Positions 1 through 16,080 of a DNA stretch of 64,000 nt are shown in pieces. Below the pieces are notes generated by a model, which was not told the DNA's origin, did no database searches, and was given only the letters and a program-made list of their open reading frames with translations. The stretch is from Daucus carota subsp. sativus (Eukaryota > Streptophyta > Magnoliopsida > Apiales > Apiaceae). How positions within the stretch are numbered: position 1 is the stretch's first letter; the number at the start of each line of letters is the position of its first letter. The stretch spans positions 44,169,598 through 44,233,597 of the forward strand of contig NC_030385.2 of NCBI RefSeq assembly GCF_001625215.2, in the 5' to 3' direction. The position numbers and the translations under genes are program-made.

Positions 1-203
1 TCCAAGGCCGTAGTCTCCGACTTCCTCCTAAGGGGTCCGAAAGGACACAAGGTCAAATACCCGATGTAAACAAAGGCGACGCCACCAAGAACTATCTTCA
101 GCGGACGGATGGGAGGTTTGCTGCGCTGGTGGAGAACCCCATCTGTTTGCTTCCCTGAATTCGGAAGCTTTTGACCTGCCTGATCATTCTGCGATCCCAC
201 CAT
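1..203 (-). CDS. 5' part of a small membrane protein of unknown function
   Basis: An open frame starts with ATG at 203-201 and runs without a stop to the left edge, giving 67 codons. The product starts MVGSQNDQAGQKLPNSGK, is polar and basic at first, then has one hydrophobic stretch (IVLGGVAFVYIGYLTL, about residues 41-56), followed by a basic patch (PLRRK). This suggests a single-pass membrane protein with a short N-terminal tail. A good TATA box lies about 130 bases upstream of the ATG on the same strand (331-341), which supports a real gene. I do not recognise the family. A splice site near the left edge cannot be excluded, so the last residues are uncertain. Confidence 0.5.
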   Translation of the reverse strand, partial: MVGSQNDQAGQKLPNSGKQTDGVLHQRSKPPIRPLKIVLGGVAFVYIGYLTLCPFGPLRRKSETTAL

Positions 204-330
204 TCTCTTCTCTAATATGATAAAATCTTTTGCTGTACTTCAAAAATTCATGTGCATGATGATAGAAAACTTGGAAGAGGCGGTCATAAAATATAGGAAT
301 TGAGATGGAGAGCAAAAGATTTGCAAAGAG

Positions 331-341
331 AATATTTATAG
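331..341 (-). promoter_or_regulatory. TATA box of the left-edge gene
   Basis: The minus strand reads CTATAAATATT here, a near-consensus plant TATA box. Transcription would start around 300, leaving a leader of about 100 bases before the ATG at 203. The box lies in the short gap behind the APO2 stop codon, so the two genes are closely spaced in tandem. Confidence 0.5.
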
Positions 342-533
342 TGGTAAGCAAATGGCTAGCATGAGCCATTAAGCTCCAACAATAAATTTCCTACTTTCTA
401 GGAGAACCATGTATTATAAATCATGAACTTATGTTTAGATTTCCACTGAGAAATATAATGTGCAACTTCAATAGGTTACACGCTATTCTTACACTATGTA
501 ACAGATGATTGTGAAGGGTAAAAAGAGAAACAG

Positions 534-3086
534 TTACACTACCATTTCAGCTTCTTTTACAGTCGATGGAATCCCCACGTTTAACCTCATTGTTGGTTGG
601 TAGCGTTCAGGTGCAGCAGCACCGCCCTGCACACATATTTCAACCACTGCTGGAGCCTGACCATAAAAGCTCCTGAGCTCCCTTTGTAATTCGGGTTTAC
701 TGAGATCAGGAACGTGCCAAACATATCTTGGGGGTATAAAATCATCAAGGACTGCAGACTGCCAGCCATGTTGTCCATTCCGTTGCTGGTGCTTATGTGC
801 CCCACAATTTTGTGCCTTATGTCCACTGCCGCCAACATGTACCTCAGGACAATAGCCACAAACCCTCACAGGGTACATTTTCATCAACCTGTTCGCTCCT
901 ACTCTCATTTTTTCCCATGCTTCAAGTGTTTCCTCGGCAAGCAAGACTATTTCATCTGCATTTGATGGGACTACTAATCTGTTATCATTTTCCTCAGTTA
1001 ATATACTTTCCATTGGAACATATGGATCAGGGTCTGGCAGTTCACTTTCATCAGCATCAACAAACTCACTTTTGCTAATGCGAATGATTGGCTTTCTTCT
1101 TCTTTTCGTTGGAAACTCAGGCAAATCAACACCCGCTTGAATACAGAGCTCAACAACTGCTGGAACTCGAGGGACTGAAAACCTGTCTTCATGAGGTATA
1201 CGCCTACCTAGACGGTCAAAGAGGTGGTAAGCATCAATTGGAACTAGTATGTCCTCAACCACTGCCTTTGTCCACTCATGATGTCCCCTACGAAGTGAAG
1301 CATTTGGGCCTCTACATGATTTGAACGGATGTCCAACAGGTCCCACATGGATTTCGTTGCACCACCTAAAAATGTAAGTGCGTCAATACGAAAACATGGT
1401 TGCTGAAAGAGATCAAGAGATCAACTGCCAATAAAAGACAATGTATCATAACCATCTGAAACATACATGTTTAAATGTTATAACGATTCACTTTCCGCAA
1501 TTTCAGATGAGTGAAAATTTGGTACTAACAATAAGCAACAACCAAAATGACAGGCTCTTTTTTATATATATTTTGCTAATTAAAATGTCACAAACTTACC
1601 TGCAGGCAAGAACAGGCACAACCTTCAGGAGCTTCTTCAGATTGTTAATGAGTGTTATTCTTGCATTGTAAACACTGTATGCAACAGGAATCAATCTTTT
1701 GACCAGCAACCCATTCTTTGGTGGAGGGACTAGTGCTTTAGGCTTGCCTCTCCTGTCCTTCATCCTCTGTCTAGCATTTCTCCGCAATTCCACTATGGGT
1801 ATAGGAAAGGGCTTCTTCTCTTTCTTAGAATAGTAACGAGGAAAATCAGCATTCTGAGGAGGACCTTCACATCTGATGACAGACTGTCTATGGAATAATT
1901 TCTGGGGCTGGGTTTTAACTGCTGTTTGAAGTCTTAAATTGTTGCCACCGTACTGCAAAAGGCACATATCTCAATATGGCAAAAATTGTATAATTTGTAA
2001 ATACAGTTATAAATCTATATAAAAAAAAAGTCCGCACAAAATTACTTTAGCACTGGAAGCCAGAACACATATATTTTTGCATGGTGCTTATTATCATAAG
2101 CTGGTAATTGTTGTTTGACAAAATAGGTTCTGAGCCGAAGCATGGGCAAGCTAGCGCCATAGTTATCATGGAGCAGAATATACATTATATTGTACTACTT
2201 TTGAGAGAACATGTTTATATGAAGTACTCATTAAGACGATAAACTCTAACTTGCACATTCTACATGTAGCATGGACCCATTACACGATTTGATATAATTT
2301 TCTTAAAAGGAAAATAAACCTTTACAATTTTTAACAGTAGATTGTGTCTGTGAACATGAAATTCAATATAATGATGGACTTCAATTATTGCCATTTTAAA
2401 TCTTCAAACTTATGCTCATGTTTGAATGTACTCAAAATCGGGTCAGATCCAAGGCCAAATTGTTTCAGTTATCAAAACATGTCATTAGTAATTTCAAATT
2501 CTCAGACAAACCATCAGCATAGCTAGATGTAATTAATCCCAGTGCCACCCTTGTCCCTTACAACCTTATTCTTACAAGAGAATAAGATAGTTTCTTATTC
2601 TGAGATCCACAGATATGCCCCTTTCCACAATTCCTTACACGATCACACCGAGACTACAAAATAGCAATACTGCAAAGCCCTAAATTTAAAATTAAGTGGT
2701 AACTGATAAACTGAATCCACAGACTGGGCACATCAAACTAAACCAGACCTGATCAGACCCATCGTATTACGATTTACGAGTATTACACCATAGTACCCTA
2801 CAAAGCCAACAAACTCAATAACAAGAGCCCCAAACAATTATACTCACAAAACCAAACATAAGGCATTGCAAGAATGAACACATATGTTAACATGTATAGT
2901 GCAGATAATGCTCTAATTGAACCAACCAACCAAGATATTACAAAACTCAAATGATTAATTTTATTGGGAAAATGATTTCAATGGAACAGAAGTATAAATT
3001 AGGTTGAGAAAAGAGTATTAGATTACCTTAAAACCCAGGAACAAGAGTGGGTTACTGTTGTTGCTGATGTTGTGTCTGAAAAACAT
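534..3086 (-). CDS. APO2: APO2-like protein (ACCUMULATION OF PHOTOSYSTEM ONE family), chloroplast
   Basis: Three coding exons on the minus strand: 3086-3027, 1952-1600 and 1365-534, giving 414 residues. The phases agree and the splice sites are GT-AG. APO proteins are plant-specific chloroplast RNA-binding proteins; APO1 is needed for intron splicing and photosystem I accumulation, and APO2 is less well defined. Both conserved APO zinc motifs are visible: CNEIHVGPVGHPFKSC from about residue 140, and CPEVHVGGSGHKAQNC further on, each followed by an HHEW or QHGW-type end. The C-terminus GIPSTVKEAEMVV matches Arabidopsis APO2 almost exactly, which favours APO2 over APO1. The first exon (20 residues, MFFRHNISNNSNPLLF) would begin the transit peptide. 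It is short but its donor and phase fit. Next to an early nodulin-like gene, as in Arabidopsis. Confidence 0.93.
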
Positions 3087-4101
3087 AAATTTAGGAAGAT
3101 GGGGAGTTGTGCTTGTCCCCAATTGAGAGGAGCAAACGCAGGCGCAGTTCATTTCGGTCTCGCTCAATAACTCGTTACATATCTTGTTGCTGCCAAATTA
3201 TAATGTGCTTTGGAGTGGCCGTGAGTGAAATAACACGGCAGATATTTTTCACCCCAGAATCAGACTGTTATCCATTTGTTGATCAAATAATAAAATACAT
3301 GTTTCATTTAAAAAAATAAAAAAGAATCCAACAAAATAAATAAAATAAAATTTGAAAATTCTCTTTCTGATTAAAAATAACTAAAAATTATTTCAGTTTT
3401 CAATCCATCTTTCGATTCAACTGAGTTGCTTTTTATTTTCATGTATTATTTAACCTCATTTTCGAAAGAGCCTGCCTGAGGAGTGAGGACCTCAGTCTGA
3501 TGTCAAAATAGTTACTATAACGGTTAGACGAGGGGTATGGTTGTGGATTATTATGTATGATCAAATTTATAGATTTTATTTTATTGGAAAGTGATTACTT
3601 TTAATTTTGGTATGTTAACCGTAAGAATAAATCTTGATACACATCCTTAAACACTACAAACACAAAATATAGGACTAGTAAAAGATTTACATTTAATAGT
3701 ATGATTTTAAATTTTTGTTATTTTATTTATTGTTTTAATACTTATCGAATCGATTGAGAGTCGAACACCAAAGGCTGAGTCTCACTCATATTTCTTTGAG
3801 TAAATCAGGCCTCACTCTCCTCGACAAAGCCTCATTCCTCAAGATTAACTTAAAACAGTTACTCTCGATAACAAAAAAACCAACAACTTCAAATCACATA
3901 CGGGCTTTACGGTAACAGAACGAGTCAAAATAATCTCCAATCACTTTCAGATATTGTTACACATCAATTAAAACAATGCACAATAACAGAAACCAAATTA
4001 AAACTCTACTGTAATCCAAACATTCCAAATCAAGCAAATAATAATTAGTACTAATATTCGTCTTAATATTCAACAACCATTACTTCCTTTATTATAAGAA
4101 C
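3087..4101. other. Intergenic: APO2 upstream region and 3' side of the early nodulin-like gene
   Basis: No gene seen. The right part is the 3' flank of the early nodulin-like gene, the left part the promoter and leader of APO2. A stretch at 3460-3860 with repeated GAGTCTCACTC-like motifs may be an eroded repeat, but I found no clear ends. Confidence 0.5.
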
Positions 4102-5033
4102 CTAAAACCAGAAGCCTAGGCCAAAAACAAGAACACCAATGCCCACAACGCCATTCTTCAGACTGCTGCCTCCACTAGCGGGTGCGGGTGCAGGTGCGGG
4201 AGTTTGAATTATCGATGTCGACGGAGCGGGGGCCGGAGATACGTGACTTACATGGTGCCCATGATGATTTTTCTTGACTAGCTTTACTTCTAGCTTCTCA
4301 CCCTTCTCACAATTGTCTTTGTTGCCACTGATGAAATAAAAGGGTCCTTCTCCTTTGAGTTCGATTGATGTGTCTCCATTGTTGTATGATTTTAATACGT
4401 ATGGCTTGTCTACGTCACAGTTCTGGTAGCCATCGTGATTCACCTCCACTACTGAATCTTTCTTGCCGTCGTACTTGAATACTGATCTCATGTTTGCATG
4501 GAAGAAAAAAAATATTACAAGAATTAAAAAATCAAAAGAATTAAAAAAAAAGAGCATAAAATAACGTTTTTTGACAATTTAGGCTCATATGTCTTATGAC
4601 AATACGTTCTAATAATTCTCAGGGTGAGAATGAATCGAATCCGATGTCCCGAAATAACAGAGGATAAATGTATCACTTAGACTATCTAATCGCACTCAGA
4701 GATAAAATAGTTGAAAGACAAGAAAATCTATCATTATAAATTGTGCAAAAGACTATTGTTATAAACATATATGTCAGATTGATGATTTTGACTAAGATCC
4801 CGTGAATTAATAAAGAAATGCTAAAATAAAAGATTCGGGAAAAATAGATAATTACCAAGATGATCTCCTTTGAGGAAGCGTTGGCTAGAAGCCCAAACAT
4901 TGTAAGAGCTGAGTGGATCACTCGGAATCTTCCATTCTTTCTCTTTCCCAACCACAAATTCCCTAGCTTCACAAGCTGAGAGCACCACCACTACAAACGC
5001 CAAGCATGAAAAAAGAGTCCTAGAAAAAGCCAT
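4102..5033 (-). CDS. Early nodulin-like protein (phytocyanin-like, GPI-anchored type)
   Basis: Two exons, 5033-4856 and 4481-4102, joined in phase 1, give 185 residues. Order of parts: signal peptide (1-23, ending ACEA), a plastocyanin-like domain (about 24-125) with the family landmarks YNVWASSQRF, VFKYDG and the Cys pair in QNCDV and DNCEKG, then an arabinogalactan-like PAPAPST/PAPAPAPAS region, then a hydrophobic tail (VVGIGVLVFGLGFWF) typical of a GPI signal. Early nodulin-like proteins sit on the outer face of the plasma membrane. The blue-copper ligands are absent: the usual Cys and His of the FxC...GHC stretch read FISGNKDNC, with Glu/Lys where Met is expected, so it should not bind copper, as in other members. 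Arabidopsis homologues (ENODL10, ENODL12) lie in the matching blocks. Confidence 0.92.
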
Positions 5034-5105
5034 GACAACGCAAGTAAATTTTCTACTAGAGGGTTTTGTAAATATTGGCTGTTAAAAATGATGTGTTTGC
5101 GAGTG

Positions 5106-5113
5106 TATAAATA
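5106..5113 (-). promoter_or_regulatory. TATA box of the early nodulin-like gene
   Basis: The minus strand reads TATTTATA 73 bases upstream of the ATG at 5033, within ordinary range for a plant core promoter. No other regulatory site is claimed. Confidence 0.45.
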
Positions 5114-6841
5114 GGCACACTTAGAGGTAGGGTTAGGCAAGAGGTTGAGAAAATCTTGAAAGTATGAGTCAAGTCTTTGATATGGTCATGGGGAATCGAG
5201 AAAACTTAGGGGTTCAATTAATCTCGCTCCTATTCATTCGCAAATCACAAACGTTTCACTCCTCTATCAGAAATGCAGTAATAGGATTTATTTATTTTCC
5301 TTTTTTGCTCCAAAACATTTAATATAGGTATATTTACTTATTTAATCACATCCTATTGACATTAATGTGCATTGTGAATAAAAAAGTGATGCGTGTATGT
5401 GAAATGTACCTTGTCGTGACGGGATTATAAGTGTACGCGCAAATTTGTTCATTCGTATCCTAATTCGTACAAGAATAAATCTAATTTGAAAAAAGAATTT
5501 ACTCGTAGATAAATTGGATGTATACATAAAAGTAAAGTTATTAATTAGTAACTAACTTTTGGTTTTAGAAAACTCTAATTCATGTCATTTTTTATTTTTA
5601 TTAAAATTAACATAAAATACATAATTAGAAATAATTATCTATCATTTGAAAATGCATCTAATCTAATTTAAAATATAATCTTTATTTTTAAAAATAAAAT
5701 TAAATATTTTTAAATATTTAATATATTGATTAATTTGAGTTTTTTGAAAATCGAAAGGACATATAATTTGAGAATGAAAGAGAGTATATATACCTATTCA
5801 TTTCGGTAATTTGAGACAATATTCATTTGTTTAGTTAATTAAATTATAACAAAATTAGAAATAATTTATGGCATAGTAGGATGCGTGAAGATATGTTTCG
5901 CACAATCAAAGTTGTCTTCCGTTTGGGTGTAAATTACGTGTCTTTACGCTCGAGAGGAGATGATTCTATTTTTCTTTTTCTATTGAGCTGATTGAGCTTT
6001 CTTATCCTACTGAATATGTGTTCGGGTTCTGTTTGAATTTGTTGAGGAATAAATTTACATTGAACTTTTATCAATGGACACTAACAAATTGAATTCTGAG
6101 TTTAATTTTGCATCTCCAGGTGCCAAACATCACCTAAAATTGTGACTTATAAGAAAAGTGAGGGAATACCAATATTTCGATGTGTGATTGTTATTTTTTT
6201 TTTTTTAAAATAAAGACCATAAGAGGGGCTCTGACTGTTTGGACTTTAGAGTTATGAGAAATGTGATTTGTTTTCATTTTTATTAACATTCAATTCCATA
6301 ACGTGATGACTGTTTGGGCAACTTCTGACTTTTTTCCTATAATGAGTCGGTTTTTATTTTTTTTAACTCGTTTGTATAAAAAATTATAAAAAGCTGAGAA
6401 TGCTAGTTTTGGTTACAGGAATTCTACTTCTTTTTCAAATAATTTAATTACTTATAAGTTTTAAATTATTTCTCACTTTTATTCTACCTACTTTATTTAT
6501 TTTAAAAAATACTTTTTTTAAAAAAATTTAGCCAAAAGTCCACCCGAAACTAATTTCTTTCATCCACGGAGCGACAGTCTGCAGTTCTGGAAGAAATAAT
6601 TAGCACAATACCAAAACGTCATGAAACTCGTGACCCTGGGAATTGTGCCCATGGATAGCTTATATAGTCGTCTTGAAATAATGAAATCCGGTGATAAACT
6701 TAAAGAGCGAAATAGAAATAAAGTTGTACTAATCAAATAATACAACTATCACAAAGAGACATGAAAACTACAAGGTAGAGGAAGCAAAACAATTTTAACT
6801 TTGGAGTCTTGAAACTCAGCAGGTACAAAGAGGCAAGAGCC
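5114..6841. other. Intergenic between two divergent genes
   Basis: No gene seen. The DNA is strongly AT-rich (5560-5880 especially). The segment at about 6290-6555 contains an inverted, diverged match to the GGGCCGTTTGGG-type MITE found at 36489 and 51819: GAATGCTAGTTTTGG and GGAATTCTACTTC correspond to the reverse complement of those copies. The rest shows nothing recognisable. Confidence 0.45.
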
Positions 6842-8283
6842 ATGAACACTGGTATGCATAATATTTCTTCGTTTCGATCACGAATACACATGTTGTGTTA
6901 AGTAGTTAATTAACAGAGACCTTGATATCAACGGTTGTTTATATGCTTAATGTTGCAGAATACTATTACAAGGTTCCACATGTTCAAGATCAAGTAGTTA
7001 ATCACCCGAGTCGGCAAGAAATAAACTCAATTGAAAATGCACTATACGGAGCTGGATCCGAGCTAATAAGGTCAGAGCTCGGTGCTTATGGAGAAAAGAT
7101 ATTAGGTTCTGGCTCCAACTACGTGCGAAACAATGTAAGTTTTTTACTTGAATTAATTGTTGGAGAGTCTGAGCTCTAATACTGTGTTAACTGTTAAGTA
7201 ACCAGTTCTCCTGAAATCTCGAGGTGGATGGTTTACAATTGTCATATTGTATTCTAACATGTAATTCTTATGTACATTTGATGTTTGTGTAGATTGGCAG
7301 GTATGTTTCGAATCCGAGATATTATTTTCAAGTGAGCGACCAATATGTGGAGAACAAACTGAAAGTAGTCCTGTTCCCGTTCTTGCACAAGGTATTATGG
7401 TGTGCAGCTGAATAAAATTTCGGTGTTCATTCATCCATTTTGCATTAGTTCTTTGTATTATCAGAACTGTTGATCACTTTTTTCTGTTCTGTTCTTAATA
7501 ATGCTGGGTTTATATGTATATAAGGGGCACTGGATGAGAAGTGTGGATTCAGATGGAAGTAATTTTACATATAAGCCTCCGGTCTACGATATCAATGCCC
7601 CTGATCTGTACATCCCACTGATGGCATTTTGCACCTACGTTATTCTTGCTGGCTTTTTCCTAGGCTTCAGCGGCAGGTAACTTCTAGTTTCTTAATTTTT
7701 CACATTTTTTGCAAGTAGAAATCCTGGTAAGCCGTCCTCCATTCGAATGAGGATAAATGTTAGAATAACAATATGATCCTGATAAACCCTTTTTTCAACA
7801 CCTTAAGATTTTGGGAGAATTGATCACTTAACATGTTGCAGTCAGGAAATGTAAACCGTCGAGGTCTTATAAAAACAATGTATGTGATTCAGATTCAGCC
7901 CTGAAGCTCTAGGAGTGCAGTTCAGTAATGGACTATTATGCTGGCTATTACAAGTGTTACTTATCGAGGTAAGTCTGCATTACTTAGGCGGAGGAGACAT
8001 CCCGTTGCTCGATGTGGTCGGTTATGCTGGATACACATTCGTGGCAGCCTCGGTGCTTGTGGTGGTTAGGATATTGTGGAGCTACTCATTCTACGTTGTC
8101 ACGGCTTGGGAATGCTTTTGCATGGGGGTGTTCTTGGTGAAAACAATGAAGAGGATTTTGGTTGCAGAGGTTCCTAGTTCTCAGAAATCTGGTTCCAAGA
8201 CTAAGCGCAATTATCTACTGCTTCTGGTGGCAATTGCTCAATTTCCTCTTTTGTTTTGGCTTGGCAAATTAGCTTCCGTTTAG
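6842..8283 (+). CDS. YIF1: YIF1 family protein (Yip1-interacting factor homologue)
   Basis: Five coding exons: 6842-6851, 6959-7134, 7293-7391, 7525-7676 and 7893-8283. The sum is 828 bases (275 residues) and every junction keeps phase. YIF1 proteins are multi-pass membrane proteins of the Golgi and ER-Golgi vesicles that pair with Yip1 proteins in vesicle transport. Landmarks: [54 protein letters not shown] and a C-terminal half of about five hydrophobic segments ([16 protein letters not shown]-type onwards) ending [19 protein letters not shown]. The start is unusual: a 10-base coding exon, ATGAACACTG, before a 107-base intron. It is the only ATG I found that enters the family frame through a good donor, but a start inside exon 2 is not excluded. 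Confidence 0.85.
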
Positions 8284-8550
8284 TCTTTCAAACCATGACA
8301 TTCACTGCATGTCCTTCGTCTAGATGGAAATATTTTTATTGATGAAAGAAATCATTTTCTTCGAATATTATATTTCGATACAATTGATTAATATTTTTTT
8401 TTGAAACTACTCATTGATGTTGATATTACTCCCTCCGTCCCCCTCAATTGTTTACATTGGAGGGGGACACGGAGACCAAGACAATGTATGAAAAATGAGT
8501 AAAGTTAGATGAAAAGTGGGTAAAGTGGTGGGACCTACCAATATTTAATA

Positions 8551-8785
8551 CTCCCTCTGTCCCATTTTAACTGATGTTTGACTTTTTGACACGTATATTG
8601 AGGTGTAAAAAAATAATATCTACGCTCAATAAAAAGATTTAATTCTTATATCAATTAAAAGTTTAGATTCTAAACTTTTATTTGATATAAATTTTATAAA
8701 CAATAATTATGTTTAGATGTGATTTTTTTAACACCTTAAAATACGTGTAAAAAAGTCAAAAGCAGTTAAAATGGGACGGAGGGAG
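8551..8785. mobile_element. Stowaway-type MITE family B, copy 1 (nested)
   Basis: 235 bases between TA dinucleotides (8549-8550 and 8786-8787) inside the family A element. It has long inverted ends, CTCCCTCTGTCCCATTTTAA against TTAAAATGGGACGGAGGGAG, and a central palindrome around AGATTCTAAACTTTT. By eye it is about 94-95% identical to copy 2 at 22792-23026, which has the same length. Confidence 0.85.
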
Positions 8786-8939
8786 TAGTAGATTTGAGAT
8801 AATGGAGGAAAGTAGTGGGTGTAATAGTAGTTTTTATTGTTAAATATGAGATAGTGGAGGAAGATAGTGGGTGTAATGATGAGAAAAACTTACTATTTAT
8901 AGTAACGTAAAGAAATGAGAGGGACATCCCAAAATAGTA

Positions 8940-9243
8940 CTCCCTCCATCCCTTTTTATCTGTCCATTTTGTAAAAAAAAACACATACCAAGAAATAATT
9001 GATTGTATAAACTTTTTCATTAAATACCTCTGATTAATATCTTGAAAATGGTGGAATACCCTTACTTTATGTCTTGAAAATATGAATTCAACCAAGTTTT
9101 AAATAAGTCAAGCCTTGAAAATTGAAATTATGGAGATATATTTGAAAAATTATCATTAAATTAGTTTTGAAAGTATAAATGGACAGATAAATAGGGACAA
9201 ATTTTTACTTCCAAGATGGACAGATAAATAGGGACGGAGGGAG
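8940..9243. mobile_element. Stowaway-type MITE family C (nested)
   Basis: 304 bases between TA dinucleotides (8938-8939 and 9244-9245) inside family A. Ends CTCCCTCCATCCCTTTTTAT and GATAAATAGGGACGGAGGGAG-like. The right end is partly doubled: TGGACAGATAAATAGGGAC occurs twice about 36 bases apart. Confidence 0.8.
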
Positions 9244-9342
9244 TAACTGTCAAGAAATGAGAGGGACAGAGGGAGTATATTTTAGTACAATAATGTCTTA
9301 TAACAGGATTTTATTTTTTTTTTACATTCCTTAATTAAAACT

Positions 9343-9400
9343 AAAGACCGATTAGCTTCATACACAAAAAAAAAAAAAAAAAAAAAAAGACCGATTAGCT
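9343..9400. mobile_element. Tiny poly(A) insertion with 15-base target duplication
   Basis: The 15-mer AAAGACCGATTAGCT occurs at 9343-9357 and 9386-9400. Between the copies lie only TCATACAC and a run of about 20 A. A target duplication flanking a poly(A) tract is the mark of target-primed reverse transcription (LINE or SINE machinery), so this may be an extremely 5'-truncated retroinsertion. A slippage duplication is the alternative. Confidence 0.5.
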
Positions 9401-9813
9401 GGTGGAGCGATATATAGCATTTGACATCACATTTACAGATCATTACGTCACAAATGTTATTTTTATTTTTTTATAGTGTCAGAAATGTTATTTAGAACTA
9501 CAATGAGAATAGATATTCAAATTCCAAATATCCTGGATATCGATTAAACTTGAACTGTAATAATTTTTTGATAATTGGATAATCAGAATCTCCTATACGT
9601 TTTATAATCGATACGTTTGAAACCGATACGTTTTTTTACATGGAAACTGATGCGTTCAAAAACAAAACTTCCACAATATGCGTCCTATTCAATAAAGATA
9701 TTTATTTCTCCCGAAAACAAGAGTTTTAAAATATTTCTTTCACACGTTTTTAAATAGTAACCACCTCCCATGGATTACTTTCCTATTATTTACCCAACAT
9801 ATCATCTTAATAT

Positions 9814-10015
9814 GGGCAATGCTAGAGACCCCAAAAAAAATTCCCAAAAATCTTTACCAAATGATGTGGCAAACAAGTGGCTAGTTATGATTGGGTGATT
9901 GATGAATCTGCAGGAGGGTCTCATTATTATGGGAGTGAATTCAACCAATCAAATCTGGACACATAATTTGGGAAAATTATTTGGGACAATTTTTTTGGGA
10001 TCTCTAGCATTTTCC
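9814..10015. mobile_element. Mutator-like MITE with 9-base target duplication
   Basis: 202 bases with inverted ends of about 33 bases: GGGCAATGCTAGAGACCCC against GGAAAATGCTAGAGATCCC (reverse complement of the right end). The flanks repeat TCTTAATAT exactly (9805-9813 and 10016-10024); nine bases is the Mutator-type length. It lies about 90 bases upstream of the TATA box of the Cys-rich peptide gene. Confidence 0.8.
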
Positions 10016-10104
10016 TCTTAATATTAAAAAAAAATTCCAATATCATCAGACAAAAATCCTAAAATATTATTCTCTCCCTATAACATCTTCTCACACTATG
10101 CCCC

Positions 10105-10112
10105 TATATATA
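10105..10112 (+). promoter_or_regulatory. TATA box of the Cys-rich peptide gene
   Basis: TATATATA within CCCCTATATATAGCTGC, 82 bases upstream of the ATG at 10194. Transcription would begin near 10140, leaving a leader of about 50 bases, a normal layout for a small plant gene. Confidence 0.55.
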
Positions 10113-10193
10113 GCTGCAACAAAAGCATCAAAATGCACTCATCTCCATTTCTTGCAATACATAAAATAATTTGCTATTGATCGAATAGTTTCA

Positions 10194-10415
10194 ATGGAAG
10201 GCAAAAATCTCATCGCAGTAAAGTTTTTAATAGCGATAGTGATACTCATGGCGTTCGTTGTCTCCATGGAAGCAAAAGCTTATTGCTGTCCCCAGTTCCC
10301 TGGACTGTGCTGCCCCAATCCCTGTTGCGCAAGTTTGAAAAAACTTGGCTACACAGCTAGTGGGATATCTCCAGGGATGAAGCTGCCGTTCGGAGCATAT
10401 TTCGTTGATAATTGA
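10194..10415 (+). CDS. Small secreted cysteine-rich peptide, family not recognised
   Basis: A single uninterrupted frame of 73 residues. Residues 1-29 form a clear signal peptide: basic start (MEGKN), hydrophobic core (FLIAIVILMAFVV), small-residue end (MEAKA). The mature part of about 45 residues starts YCCPQFPGLCCPNPCC, three adjacent Cys pairs with spacing CC-x6-CC-x3-CC, followed by SLKKLGYTASGISPG and a Cys-free end. Six Cys could form three disulfides. A TATA box at a normal distance supports expression. The pattern is not that of GASA, defensin, LTP, thionin or RALF families as I know them. The frame is short, so family support from other genomes would matter. No function is proposed. 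Confidence 0.6.
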   Translation: MEGKNLIAVKFLIAIVILMAFVVSMEAKAYCCPQFPGLCCPNPCCASLKKLGYTASGISPGMKLPFGAYFVDN

Positions 10416-10533
10416 CGAAAAAATAATCTGTATCATTTTATTTTGTGTCGGATCGGTTATCTTGTATTGTTATAAGATGATTTGGAATGAGAAGGATTTA
10501 TCGTACGTTGTCCGTCAGATTATTACATAAGTA

Positions 10534-10699
10534 GTGCTAGGTGCACATAATTGTGTACATAAAATTTGTACATAATGTGGCATGTGATGTGGTGGATTTT
10601 AATTGGGGTGGTTGGTGTAAATGCCGGGAGTCATCCAATTAAAATTCACCACATGTCATTATGTACATGTTTTTGTACACAATTATGTGCACCAAGCAT
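10534..10699. mobile_element. Foldback MITE
   Basis: Two arms of about 75 bases pair with each other: GTGCTAGGTGCACATAATTG at the left matches the reverse complement of the right end (AATGCTTGGTGCACATAATTG-like), and the match runs on to TTTTAATTGG near the centre. I could not confirm a target duplication, so the superfamily is open (Mutator-like is possible). Confidence 0.65.
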
Positions 10700-11430
10700 T
10701 ATTGTTATTATATATCTTCGTGAATGGGGCTTATTTCTGTTTTTTCTTTTCTTTTTGCAATTTAAATCAGGCCTAACATGATTTTGAAGGTTCAGAAGTA
10801 AATCCAAATTAAAATTCATAGATTAAAACAATTCATTAAAATCTCACTCGAATACACCCCTGCAGTCTATAGATTTTAATATTGTATGTGATTTTGATTT
10901 TGTACAGATTCTTGATGATAATATTTATGTACAATACTTTCAAATCCTATTGATTTTGTTGTAATTTCAAAAAATTTAAAATACATTGAACAATGCCACA
11001 AAATTCATTATTTTATGAAATCCGAAAAAATCCATCAGCATTTGAATACCATCAGATTTTAATGAATTTTAACAATCCCAATTTAATACAATCGGATTTT
11101 AAAGCATAATTTAAAATCTCAATTGAATACCACCAGATTTTGTAGCATAATTTAAAATTCTAATCGAATATCTCAAGATTTTAATAGATTTCAAACAATA
11201 CCAATCGAATACCCTCGAATTTCATAAATACCAAAAAATATAAAAAAATACTAATCCAATACATTGAATATATCAAAATTTTGATATATTTTCAATAATT
11301 TAATTTTTTTTATTAAACCTAGAATATTTTTTTTGAAAGAAATTAAACCTAGAATTTTGATATAACTTTGAATACCCGACCCAATTTTTAAAAAAATTCG
11401 CAGGGTTTATTACACTTCTTCGGTCCTGTA
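10700..11430. other. Intergenic upstream of SR alpha
   Basis: AT-rich DNA in which short phrases such as CGAATACC...AGATTTTAAT recur several times with differences between 10830 and 11300, probably an eroded repeat. No gene seen. A GC-richer stretch at about 11430-11486 is the likely first, untranslated exon of SR alpha. Confidence 0.4.
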
Positions 11431-11760
11431 ACAATTAACTTGTTTTCCCCGAGGGGCCGAGGCGATTTACGAGAAATCGCAGCAGGTACTCGTTAATCCT
11501 CATCTTATTGCACAAATTTTCATTCCCGCTAATTTATCCGTTAATTAATTCATTCGTCATGTATATATACTTATGTTCCAATTAGTTTGTATTGATATTT
11601 AGGTCTGTTATTCTGTTACATATATCGGTTATTACGTGTTTTTTTATCTGTATTTTAGTGATCATTATGTATGTGACGATTTATGGATGTAGATTGTGCC
11701 GTGAATTTTATACGGTGTAGAGTTTGCAAAAGTTTTGGAGTAGAATTGTGTTATAATTGC

Positions 11761-11890
11761 GTCTATTTTCACTTGTTTTCGCTTTCATCCTTTTAAAAAA
11801 CTCGGGAGCACAAATAAGAGCGAAAGTTATATAATTTTACTTACTGCTCACTTGCTTTCCTCCATGTTTATAACTCGGAGCAGGGCGTAG
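11761..11890. repeat. Dispersed repeat, copy 1, in the SR alpha leader intron
   Basis: This segment matches 33970-34100 at moderate identity: TTCACTTG-TTTCGCTTTCA, CTCGGGAGCACAA, GAGCGAAAGTTA, CACTTGCTTTCCTCC and CTCGGAGCAGGG occur in the same order in both. The ends are not defined. Origin unknown. Confidence 0.5.
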
Positions 11891-12173
11891 GATAGTTTGT
11901 GTTACGAGTGGAAGTGATGATCGCAAATTAGTGCAACTCGTGTAGTGTTAGAATCTGTTACGAGCCATGTCAGACTTGTGAAGTTTTTGTTTTCTTTTGA
12001 TGATTATTGTGCTTTTTGGTTTGAGCGAATTTATTTGTGCTCGGTTAGTTAACTAATTTATTGCTTCTACTTTTTTCGGTTTTTGAGTTTATCATTCGGT
12101 TAGTTAATTTAAGGAGTCGTGTTTATTGTTTTGTATTATGTGTTTTGTTGCAGGATTGGAATTTAATTTAGGC

Positions 12174-15100
12174 ATGTTAGAGCAGTTACTGATATTTACG
12201 AGAGGAGGATTGATCCTCTGGACTTGTAAGGAGCTCGGAAATGCTCTTAGAGGATCGCCTATTGACATGTTGATCAGATCGTGCCTTTTGGAGGAAAGAT
12301 CTGGTGCTGCGTTGTATAATTATGATGCACCTGGTGCTGCCTACACTCTTAAGTGGGCTTTTAACAATGAACTCAGCCTTGTCTTTGTTGCCGTGTATCA
12401 AAAGATTTTCCATCTTTTGTACGTGGATGATTTACTTGCTATGGTTAAGCGGGAGTTCTCGGAGATTTATGATCCTAAAAGAATCGGGTATGATGATTTC
12501 GATGAGAAGTTCAGGCAGCTTAGGATGGAGGCAGAGGCGCGTGTGGAAGATATGAAGAAATTAAATCAGGTGGCTAAGCCAGTGAGTAATAGTGGTCTAA
12601 GTAAGAAGCAAGGGAAGCAGAAGATAGGTCTTGATGGAGGTGATAATAAAAAAAGCAGCAGTGAGTCGGGGAATGATGGTGGAGATGGTGAAAAACTAAA
12701 AGGTTGTAAATTAGAAATTGGTAACGGTCTTGCTAATGGTAACCGTGATGGTAGCGGGAAAACGGCTGAAAAGGGTATTACTATTGGTAAAGAAAACGAT
12801 AGCTCCAACAATGGGGCTTTTGATGTAAATAAGCTACAAAAACTAAGAGCTAAAGGTTCAAAGAAAATTAATACTGTTGTTAACAAGGTTCCCAGAGTGG
12901 AACCAAAGAAAAAGATAACAAAAAAGAATACAGTTTGGGACAAACCAGTCGAGGCCAAGTTGGATTTCACAGATCCAGTGAGTCAGGATGGGGATGAGAA
13001 CAGTGTGACTTTAGCAGCCAATGAAGGGGAGAGTATGATGGACAAAGAGGAGATAATTAGTAGTGATAGCGACTCTGATGACAATGAGGATGAGGATGCT
13101 ACCAAGGATAGGAACGTGGATATGAGAAAGAAGGGGTGGTTTTCTTTAATGTTTCAGAGGTAAGCTGATTTTCCTAATTCCTTATATGCTTAATGTGTTT
13201 TAGAGAGTACATATTCTCTACATTGAAATATTGGATTAATTTTTGACTTGGGATATACTTGTGCTATTTGGATATTATTATGATGTTTTGCCTTGGGTTT
13301 ATATTTTTATTTTAAAGTTTATTCTCCATTGCCCGTTGGTCATGGGTTCTTGATATCACTGCTGTTGAGTATTCATCTTATCTTTTGCAAATAGTTATAA
13401 TAATTGGATGGGTACATCACTTATTTAATATTTTTCCTTAGTATTGCTGGGAAGGCAAATTTGGAGAAGGCGGACCTAGAACCAGCCTTAAAAGCTCTTA
13501 AGGGCAACTCCAACCCAACACCAAAACACCATTTTGGTGTCAAATTTGGTGTCAAATTCACTCCAACCCAACACCAAATTGGTGTAAAGTTGACACCAAA
13601 TGAATTGGTTGACACCAAATTTGGTGTCAAGTATTGATTTGGTGCAACTTTTACACCAAATTTGGAGTTTTCCAAAATACCTACTATACCCTCACATATG
13701 TTAATTAAAACAAAATTATTCCATCTATGTCCCATTAAAGTTGTCTTATGTTATATTATTTATTCTTTAATCATAATTGTTTTAAATTTTCCTTCTTTAC
13801 TATTTTACTCAATTTTTTATTTATTTCCAAATATCAATAAATTTATATTCTTATATAGAAGATATGTTTTTTAAATAGATTTGATTAAAAATAAAATACA
13901 CAATGATTAAATTTACCTCACATATGTATTATCATGCACAACTTGATAGTTGAGGATGAACGAGACTTGAATTTGCATGTACATGATTACGTGGAAACAT
14001 CTTTTGCTGCTGTCGAAATGGCAAGAAATGGAGATGACGAATTTCAAGATTTTCTTAGTAGATATCGATAAATTAAAGATAAGGAAGCTCATTTTGAACT
14101 TCGCAACGACTTGATCGAACACATATGGGAAGAGCATGGGAATTCATATATTTAAGTTGTCCTCTTGAATTTATTAATAAATTTATAATTATTTTAGGTC
14201 CTTGTTTATTGAACATGTTAAAATTTAAGTACAAATTCAATAATGATATAAATAACTTAAAAAGAGAGAATATTCCATTTAATGTGTAAAAGATTCTTTT
14301 TGGTGTAGGATATGGTGTTGATGGGTTGGAATGAAATTTTGATTTGGTGTAGTTTTCACACCAAATTGGTGTATTTTTCACACCAAAATGGTGTTATGGG
14401 TTGGAGATGGTCTAAGGACAGGCTTATGACCAAGAATGTGGTATGTACCTTCACTCTAGCCCTCTGCTGGCATCAAGTTTTTTAGTTAGCTTGTAATCCT
14501 ATACTATCTGAGCTTTCTTCAATTACTCCAGTCTGTTTTAGTATTCTTTGAATCAGTACTGTACTTGATATTAATAATCGGGTTCAATAGGCTGAGGAGA
14601 TAGCTGAAAAACTCTGTGAATCAGTAGCATCAAGCCTTGAGGGTAAGAAACTAGGATCATTTACAAGGATTTCATCAACAGTGCAATTAGCTATGGAAGA
14701 GGCTCTTGTTCGCATTTTAACTCCTAGGCGTTCCATTGACATTTTACGAGATGTTCATGCTTCTAAGGAGCAAGGAAAACCATATGTTGTTGTCTTTGTT
14801 GGAGTTAATGGAGTGGGGAAATCGAAATCTACTAATCTTGCCAAGGTGAAAACCATTTAATCATAAGAACTTTATAGAACCTAGAAATTTGTCTGACTCC
14901 ATGCTATTTGCAGGTTGCATATTGGCTTCAGCAGCATAGCATTAATGTAATGATGGCTGCATGTGATACATTTCGTGCTGGAGCTGTTGAGCAACTACGT
15001 ACTCATGCACGTAGGCTCCAGGTATATTTTTTATATGAGTCTCATATATTTTGAGATTCTTCATTAAGCCAGTATATGCACAAGTATTAGTGCCATTGAT

Positions 15101-16080
15101 GGCCATCTAGTGACCTGTTTAATATTTTTTTTTGTCTATTAGATTCCTATATTTGAGAAAGGTTATGAAAAAGATCCTGCAGTTGTAGCAAAAGAAGCAA
15201 TTCAGGAGGCCAGTCGTAACGGTTCTGATGTTGTTCTTGTTGATACAGCTGGCAGGATGCAGGTATTCAATATATTTCGCAATCTTTTGCTATTGGGGTC
15301 ATGTATTTTTTTACTGCTCAAGTGCGACAAACATCAGAAAAGATGCTTGCTCTATCATTGAAACTTATACTTGTTGGGAGGGATTGCAATATGTACTTTT
15401 TCTTGAGCTTTCATAATTTTGTTGTTGCTCCTCACCATTTATCATATGTGTAGGATAATGAACCATTGATGCGAGCTTTGTCAAAACTTATCTATGTCAA
15501 TAGCCCAGATTTGGTCCTTTTTGTTGGTGAGGCACTAGTTGGGAATGATGCTGTGGATCAGCTATCAAAGTTCAACCAGGTTTGGTGTTTACTGTATTAG
15601 ATAGTAGTTTATATCTGGTTAAACTACTATTTTATAAAATTCAAGAATCAGTAAAGCTGTAAGGGCTAGAATCAGGTTCGTTGCTTTTCATTCCAAAAAT
15701 ATGCCATAGCAGTGGCCAAGTTATTCTGAGGCAACATCTTTGATTACAGTTTAAGGATGCTTTTGTAAATTTTTCTGCAGAAATTAGCTGATCTCTCGCC
15801 ATCTTCAAGTCTCAGATTGATTGATGGAATCCTGCTCACAAAGTTTGATACAATAGATGATAAGGTAAATAACCCATTATATTATGTACAGATAAATTTA
15901 ATCAAAAAGGATGTGCATTAAATTTGTAACTGGGGTTTTGATAATGATATGCAGGTTGGTGCTGCTCTGTCTATGGTTTACATATCCGGATCACCTGTCA
16001 TGTTTGTTGGATGTGGGCAGTCATATACTGACCTGAAGAAGTTGAATGTGAAGTCCATTGTTAAGACCCTCCTCAAATGA
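12174..16080 (+). CDS. SRPRA: Signal recognition particle receptor subunit alpha (with transposon in exon 2)
   Basis: Docks ribosome-SRP complexes at the ER as a GTPase. Exons: 12174-13159, 13442-13501 plus 14416-14440 (one exon split by a transposon), 14591-14845, 14914-15021, 15143-15262, 15454-15579, 15781-15864, 15955-16080. Without the insert this is 629 residues in frame, the normal family length. N-terminal SRX domain ([16 protein letters not shown]...), a charged linker with an acidic run ([13 protein letters not shown]), then the NG GTPase: P-loop GVNGVGKS (about 427-434), DTAGR (about 512-516), TKFD (about 580-583), end [11 protein letters not shown] leader intron probably spans 11487-12153. 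The 911-base insert brings an in-frame stop at 13635-13637 unless it is spliced out, so this copy may be an allele with reduced function or one with a new intron. Downstream exons look intact. Confidence 0.93.
13502..14412. mobile_element. PIF/Harbinger element (internally deleted) inside SR alpha exon 2
   Basis: Inverted ends GGGCAACTCCAACCCAACAC and, from the right, GACCATCTCCAACCCATAAC, with TAA duplicated at 13499-13501 and 14413-14415. Removing the element and one TAA restores CTT AAG GAC AGG, the expected SR alpha codons. The ends carry repeated ACACCAAATTTGGTGTCAA-like units. Inside, at about 13940-14155, the plus strand encodes the end of a Harbinger transposase: a frame with [19 protein letters not shown], a stop, then [19 protein letters not shown]. 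The element cannot move by itself but could be moved by a related transposase. The intact ends suggest modest age. Confidence 0.93.

Follow-up and report, generated by a model that had tools for sequence, protein, structure and literature searches.

A 911-bp PIF/Harbinger (Tourist-like) element at 13502-14412 interrupts coding exon 2 (85 bp) in one of the two carrot (Daucus carota subsp. sativus) genes for the alpha subunit of the SRP receptor (SR-alpha), and this copy is very probably a recently disabled duplicate, lost by ordinary inactivation. At the DNA level, this view draws on the insertion and its target site duplications, the family of the element, an in-frame stop, a second lesion in the same copy and an intact paralog on C6. 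The locus offers a clean example of a mobile element probably removing one of two old gene duplicates.

Host gene and site of insertion

The window (the whole stretch of DNA that was analyzed, 64,000 nucleotides) lies on contig C5. Without the insert, the host gene consists of eight coding exons separated by seven GT-AG introns, and its frame runs uninterrupted from 12174 to a stop codon at 16078-16080; Pfam matches to SRP-alpha_N (2.1e-56), SRP54_N (1.7e-07) and SRP54 (6.7e-56) identify the product as SR-alpha. The features are as follows:

12174-13159, forward: SR-alpha exon 1 (SRX domain and linker); open reading frame, Pfam SRP-alpha_N 2.1e-56, donor GTAAGC at 13160
13442-13501, forward: SR-alpha exon 2, 5' part including the first TAA; alignment with the corresponding 85-bp exon on C6
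13499-13501, no strand: target site duplication TAA, left copy; from sequence
13502-14412, forward: 911-bp non-autonomous PIF/Harbinger (Tourist-like) element; copies 91-98% identical, ends, duplications
13584-14416, forward: intron proposed by the first-pass annotation, not supported here; donor -1.87, acceptor -2.68, rank 11 among 21 frame-keeping pairs
13635-13637, forward: in-frame TGA reached by read-through; open reading frame 13404-13637
13907-14071, forward: remnant from the C-terminal part of a Harbinger transposase, 54 aa, stop at 14069-14071; residues 5-54 are 88% identical to C5:30620707-30620856
14413-14415, no strand: target site duplication TAA, right copy; from sequence
14416-14440, forward: SR-alpha exon 2, 3' part; comparison with the C6 paralog
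14591-14845, forward: SR-alpha exon 3, with the P-loop codons inside; comparison with the C6 paralog
14819-14830, forward: near-perfect tandem pair AAATCG AAATCT, two extra P-loop codons; one such unit in the C6 copy
14914-16080, forward: remaining SR-alpha exons (14914-15021, 15143-15262, 15454-15579, 15781-15864 and 15955-16080); open, GT-AG introns between, stop TGA at 16078-16080

Elsewhere in the window, an 81-residue open frame at 10170-10415 contains a hydrophobic segment and is rich in cysteine at one end, as small secreted peptides are.

The first-pass annotation had reported a 911-base Harbinger element with TAA duplications in a coding exon of SR-alpha, and the coordinates listed above bear this out. 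Its count of 45 codons read through before the TGA also agrees with the open reading frame, in which AAG plus 44 codons precede the stop (counted by hand). Without the insert, exon 2 has the same size (85 bp) in the window gene and in the C6 paralog, and skipping it would indeed lose the frame, as had been noted. However, the site had been placed just before the NG domain, and this has to be corrected: it falls between residues 21 and 22 of the tested segment, in which SRP54_N covers residues 2-61 (Pfam), and thus inside the N domain. The uninterrupted SRX and NG coding exons expected of a functional SR-alpha are lacking in the window copy, in which no further stop or frameshift was found beyond the insertion.

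We propose that a Harbinger MITE-like element inserted at a TAA in exon 2 of the window SR-alpha gene, one of a pair in carrot, and that this most likely inactivates the window copy, since read-through would end about 45 codons on, at a TGA far enough upstream of several introns to make the transcript a likely target of nonsense-mediated decay. Alternative splices would at best yield proteins with an altered N domain, two extra P-loop residues would probably cripple the GTPase of the same copy, and the C6 copy, intact in sequence, would presumably take over the function.

The inserted element and its family

The element ends in GGGCAACTCCAACCCA on the left and TGGGTTGGAGATGGTC on the right; when the former is compared with the reverse complement of the latter, 13 of 16 positions agree (by eye), so that terminal inverted repeats are present, and the TAA/TAA flanks are a 3-bp target duplication of the TWA type typical of PIF/Harbinger. 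The transposase remnant by itself stays under the Pfam cut-off (19.1 vs. 22 bits). However, the segment to which it is similar (C5:30620707-30620856) is part of a 279-aa frame that matches Plant_tran (1.7e-102) and DDE_Tnp_4 (6.2e-12), and the C-terminal remnant thereby relates the window element to a Harbinger-type DDE transposase. The element carrying the 279-aa frame (C5 about 30620365-30622168, minus strand; loci L059 and L096 combined) is a longer relative; its ends are almost identical to those of the window element, and its target duplication is TGA.

A genome search with the window element returned dozens of other near full-length copies with 91-98% identity, which form a uniform family; 40 of 180 candidates were scored, and the copy counts are lower bounds. 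The left-end pattern, with one mismatch at most, occurs at no fewer than 57 places in the genome, and identical 3-bp flanks were found in 32 of the 39 fetched copies (TTA in 16, TAA in 13, and TGA, which departs from TWA, in 3). Given these dozens of near full-length copies and the identical flanks in 32/39, the insertion in the window is not a chance resemblance. The window element was aligned with 32 copies, giving 33 rows (L045, L046, L054 and L057-L060 were left out of the alignment and of the in silico site test described below, as an end was missing or the copy was interrupted). Over 911 bp, the window copy has 4 private substitutions, and it differs from the majority of ten closely related rows, itself included, by 7. 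At assumed plant substitution rates, 4-7 substitutions point to an age of roughly 0.3-1.1 million years. Against the majority of all 33 rows there are 12 differences, some of them subfamily variants, and this count would imply a somewhat higher age. In our reading, the element comes from a PIF/Harbinger MITE-like family that was active recently.

The same features bear on the possibility that the insertion is an assembly artefact. Repeats can be misplaced in assemblies, yet nothing specific was found that points to this here, and the clean 3-bp duplication, the family-typical ends and the private substitutions of the window element all argue for a genuine insertion. Moreover, the DH1 v.3 assembly, to which the window would belong, is described as long-read based (PMC10581907). 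We regard an artefact as extremely improbable. The same source gives DH1 as a doubled haploid, and therefore that plant would have no allele at the locus besides the one with the insertion.

The screen for family insertions in coding exons covered 50 places (the 39 fetched copies, 10 more and the window; 11 of the 57 left ends fall outside this set). Coding exons are split at no fewer than 3 of the 46 places with readable flanks, the SR-alpha site included; L046, L054, L060 and L074 had no readable flank pair, and L096 served to complete L059. The screen relied on open frames with a minimum length of 45 (best 25 rows) or 60 residues, so that short exons are missed and the SR-alpha exon itself would escape. 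At L051 (C6:29861008-29863943), an LRR receptor-like gene carries a family member close to its start codon; the open frame of this gene is truncated to 284 aa, compared with 977 aa in a 92% identical neighbor about 7 kb off. The longer relative at L059/L096 splits a coding exon that matches Pfam ANF_receptor (2.5e-28), a receptor ligand-binding region, which we take to be glutamate-receptor-like. The other exon insertions fit dispensable copies as targets better than they fit an intron-making family, although the numbers are small and short exons were missed.

The SR-alpha paralog on C6

Whole-genome searches with two parts of the protein found a single further strong SR-alpha locus, on the minus strand at C6:31517456-31520796, and beyond it only weak matches, the best at 6e-4 for one part and 1.18 for the other. 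The C6 gene has a continuous 631-aa frame with seven GT-AG introns, its exons correspond one-to-one to those of the window gene, and its 85-bp exon lies without an insert at 4200-4284 of the reversed locus sequence L021 (C6:31515000-31523000, minus strand). Intron 1 is 997 bp long in the C6 copy and 282 bp in the window copy. One motif, DTFRAGA in the window copy and in the solved SR-alpha sequences that were aligned, is DTFRSGA in the C6 copy, a change that we take as tolerated; the C6 copy presumably supplies the SR-alpha function. The first-pass annotation had held that a second intact SR-alpha gene with all the expression would speak against its splicing proposal; as far as the gene itself is concerned, there is such a gene, intact in sequence. 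It also rules out the argument that a single essential gene must be spliced in order to work.

Between the window and C6 copies, Ks is 0.49 and Ka 0.068, and Ka/Ks (NG86) is 0.14 overall and 0.06 in NG. The low Ka/Ks together with the Ks of 0.49 indicates an old pair that evolved under constraint during most of its existence, and therefore that the window copy was useful until recently. This past selection and the lack of other stops and frameshifts count against a long-dead gene, but not against a recent loss. We also considered whether the intact remaining exons prove function, and rejected this, because only about 5-27 neutral substitutions in the CDS are expected at 0.3-1.1 million years; with so young an insertion, the intactness of the remaining exons says little.

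A second lesion in the P-loop

In addition to the insertion, and beyond what the first-pass annotation had listed, the window copy alone carries a 6-bp, in-frame duplication in exon 3 that adds two residues to the nucleotide-binding loop. The two extra residues are absent from the C6 paralog and from the four solved SR-alpha sequences that were shown aligned among the 75 matched in the PDB search, and the window copy thus lacks the conserved P-loop of a functional SR-alpha. The P-loop insertion by itself would probably cripple the GTPase.

Splicing across the element

The alternative to inactivation put forward by the first-pass annotation is that the element has become a new intron, with 13583 spliced to 14417, so that 27 residues are added and the gene still works. 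Recomputing the splice gives the product that had been described: the sites are GT and AG, both in phase 0, the frame is kept and 27 residues are gained. Precedents are reported from maize, where Adh1-Fm335 has Ds1 as an intron and Dissociation makes introns de novo (works cited in PMC3260210 and PMC3443670), and purifying selection across most of the past of the gene would suit a copy kept in use. However, the donor GGT|GTAAAG is without G at -1 and +5, and the acceptor is an AAG behind a purine-rich stretch. With a matrix of general plant splice frequencies (used for the shuffles as well), the donors of the 14 real introns of both SR-alpha genes score 2.6 to 6.2 and the acceptors -0.7 to 5.9, and the proposed donor and acceptor fall below all 14. 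A second matrix, built from the same 14 introns and thus from a small set, with each real intron scored with its own pair left out, gives -1.0 for the donor (below 14/14, 2.5 to 10.4) and -1.6 for the acceptor (below 12/14). Among the 48 GT and 33 AG of the stretch, donor and acceptor rank 9th and 13th with the general plant matrix, and 16th and 15th with the SR-alpha matrix.

That the frame is kept carries little information by itself, as 21 GT-AG pairs do so and the proposed pair is the 11th of them. Dinucleotide shuffles of the element contain at least one frame-keeping pair in 254 of 300 cases, and one as good or better in 226; for shuffles of the reverse complement, the counts are 249/300 and 218/300. 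A pair that uses the same terminal TAAG acceptor occurs in 124/300 shuffles and is as good in 78/300. That an inserted element permits an in-frame splice is therefore weak evidence, because most shuffled elements offer one. When placed in silico at the site, all 32 other family copies likewise give a frame-keeping pair with the same terminal acceptor, and the donor context recurs in 30 of the 33 aligned rows, so that nothing in the window copy looks tuned for splicing. The idea that the family carries ready-made splice sites was rejected, as this donor context is widespread yet weak. A transposon-derived intron would have normally strong splice sites close to the ends of the element, and the proposed pair does not; the donor sits 82 bp inside the element, and a strong acceptor at 14309 lies about 100 bp inside. 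Since, in addition, the 27 residues would split the N domain, the P-loop carries a separate lesion and a second SR-alpha gene removes the need for splicing, we regard a working new intron as very unlikely. Between the two outcomes that had been offered, a damaging allele or a transposon turned intron, the former is upheld by the stop, the insertion into the N domain and the P-loop lesion, whereas the weak sites, the chance pairs, the second gene and the P-loop lesion weigh against the latter.

A different in-frame splice might yield a stable but altered protein, either through removal of 13584-14308 or through extension of intron 1 to 14352 or 14421, which would replace or remove the beginning of the N domain. 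The best frame-keeping pair joins the donor at 13584 to an exon start at 14309, adding 63 residues, and its score of 4.19 is reached by 11/300 forward and 6/300 reverse-complement shuffles, which makes it better than 289/300 of the former. Its acceptor scores 6.06 with the general plant matrix, above all 14 real acceptors, while the donor is the same weak one; many of the other copies, when set into the site, have the 13584/14309 pair too, so that it is a property of the family. The donor of intron 1 (13160, score 6.2) can be joined in frame to exon starts at 14353, 14407 or 14422 (acceptor scores 1.9 for 14353 and 0.94 for 14422), and therefore some in-frame product is possible. However, with an insertion point between residues 21 and 22 and SRP54_N spanning residues 2-61, every such product would alter the N domain; the P-loop lesion would persist in all of them, and the native acceptor at 13441 competes. 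We consider this alternative unlikely. It is likewise highly improbable that the window copy is still translated as a divergent receptor, in which the element would be spliced out (13583/14417 or 13583/14309) to leave an N-domain loop of 27 or 63 residues next to the lengthened P-loop, as a transposon becoming an intron in a paralog that is free to change.

Comparison with known systems

In carrot, 75 of 31,025 MITE copies, including 19 of 8731 Tourists, have been annotated in cds (PMC8227079, Table 1), so that exon insertions are rare but known. Carrot hAT-like MITEs are reported in new splice variants (PMC8227079, section 3.2), and nothing on the window SR-alpha gene was found in the sections of that study drawn on here. 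Among the titles and abstract openings listed in our literature search, no new plant intron made by a Harbinger element was named, and none of the papers listed gave a usable plant SR-alpha mutant phenotype.

Like the maize Ds elements, the window element is a DNA transposon in a plant coding exon; splicing has been reported for Ds, whereas for the window element it is a possibility. Introners, which recruit splice sites from duplications in many lineages (PMC9860276), resemble it in being DNA transposons with inverted repeats and a target duplication, and in the possible acceptor AG the A comes from the duplication and the G from the host. In contrast to Introners, the family of the window element would be spliced, if at all, at weak sites. 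Among animals and land plants, the survey in PMC9860276 describes Introners in two groups only, both of them animals, and none in land plants; if splicing were true, the locus would be a dated intron birth in a land plant. The carrot Tourist-like MITEs of the PIF/Harbinger superfamily, among which Krak is a named family, share with the window element the TWA-type 3-bp duplication, the terminal inverted repeats, a transposase remnant and tens of copies, and differ from it in length, with a mean of 319 bp as against 911 bp (PMC8227079).
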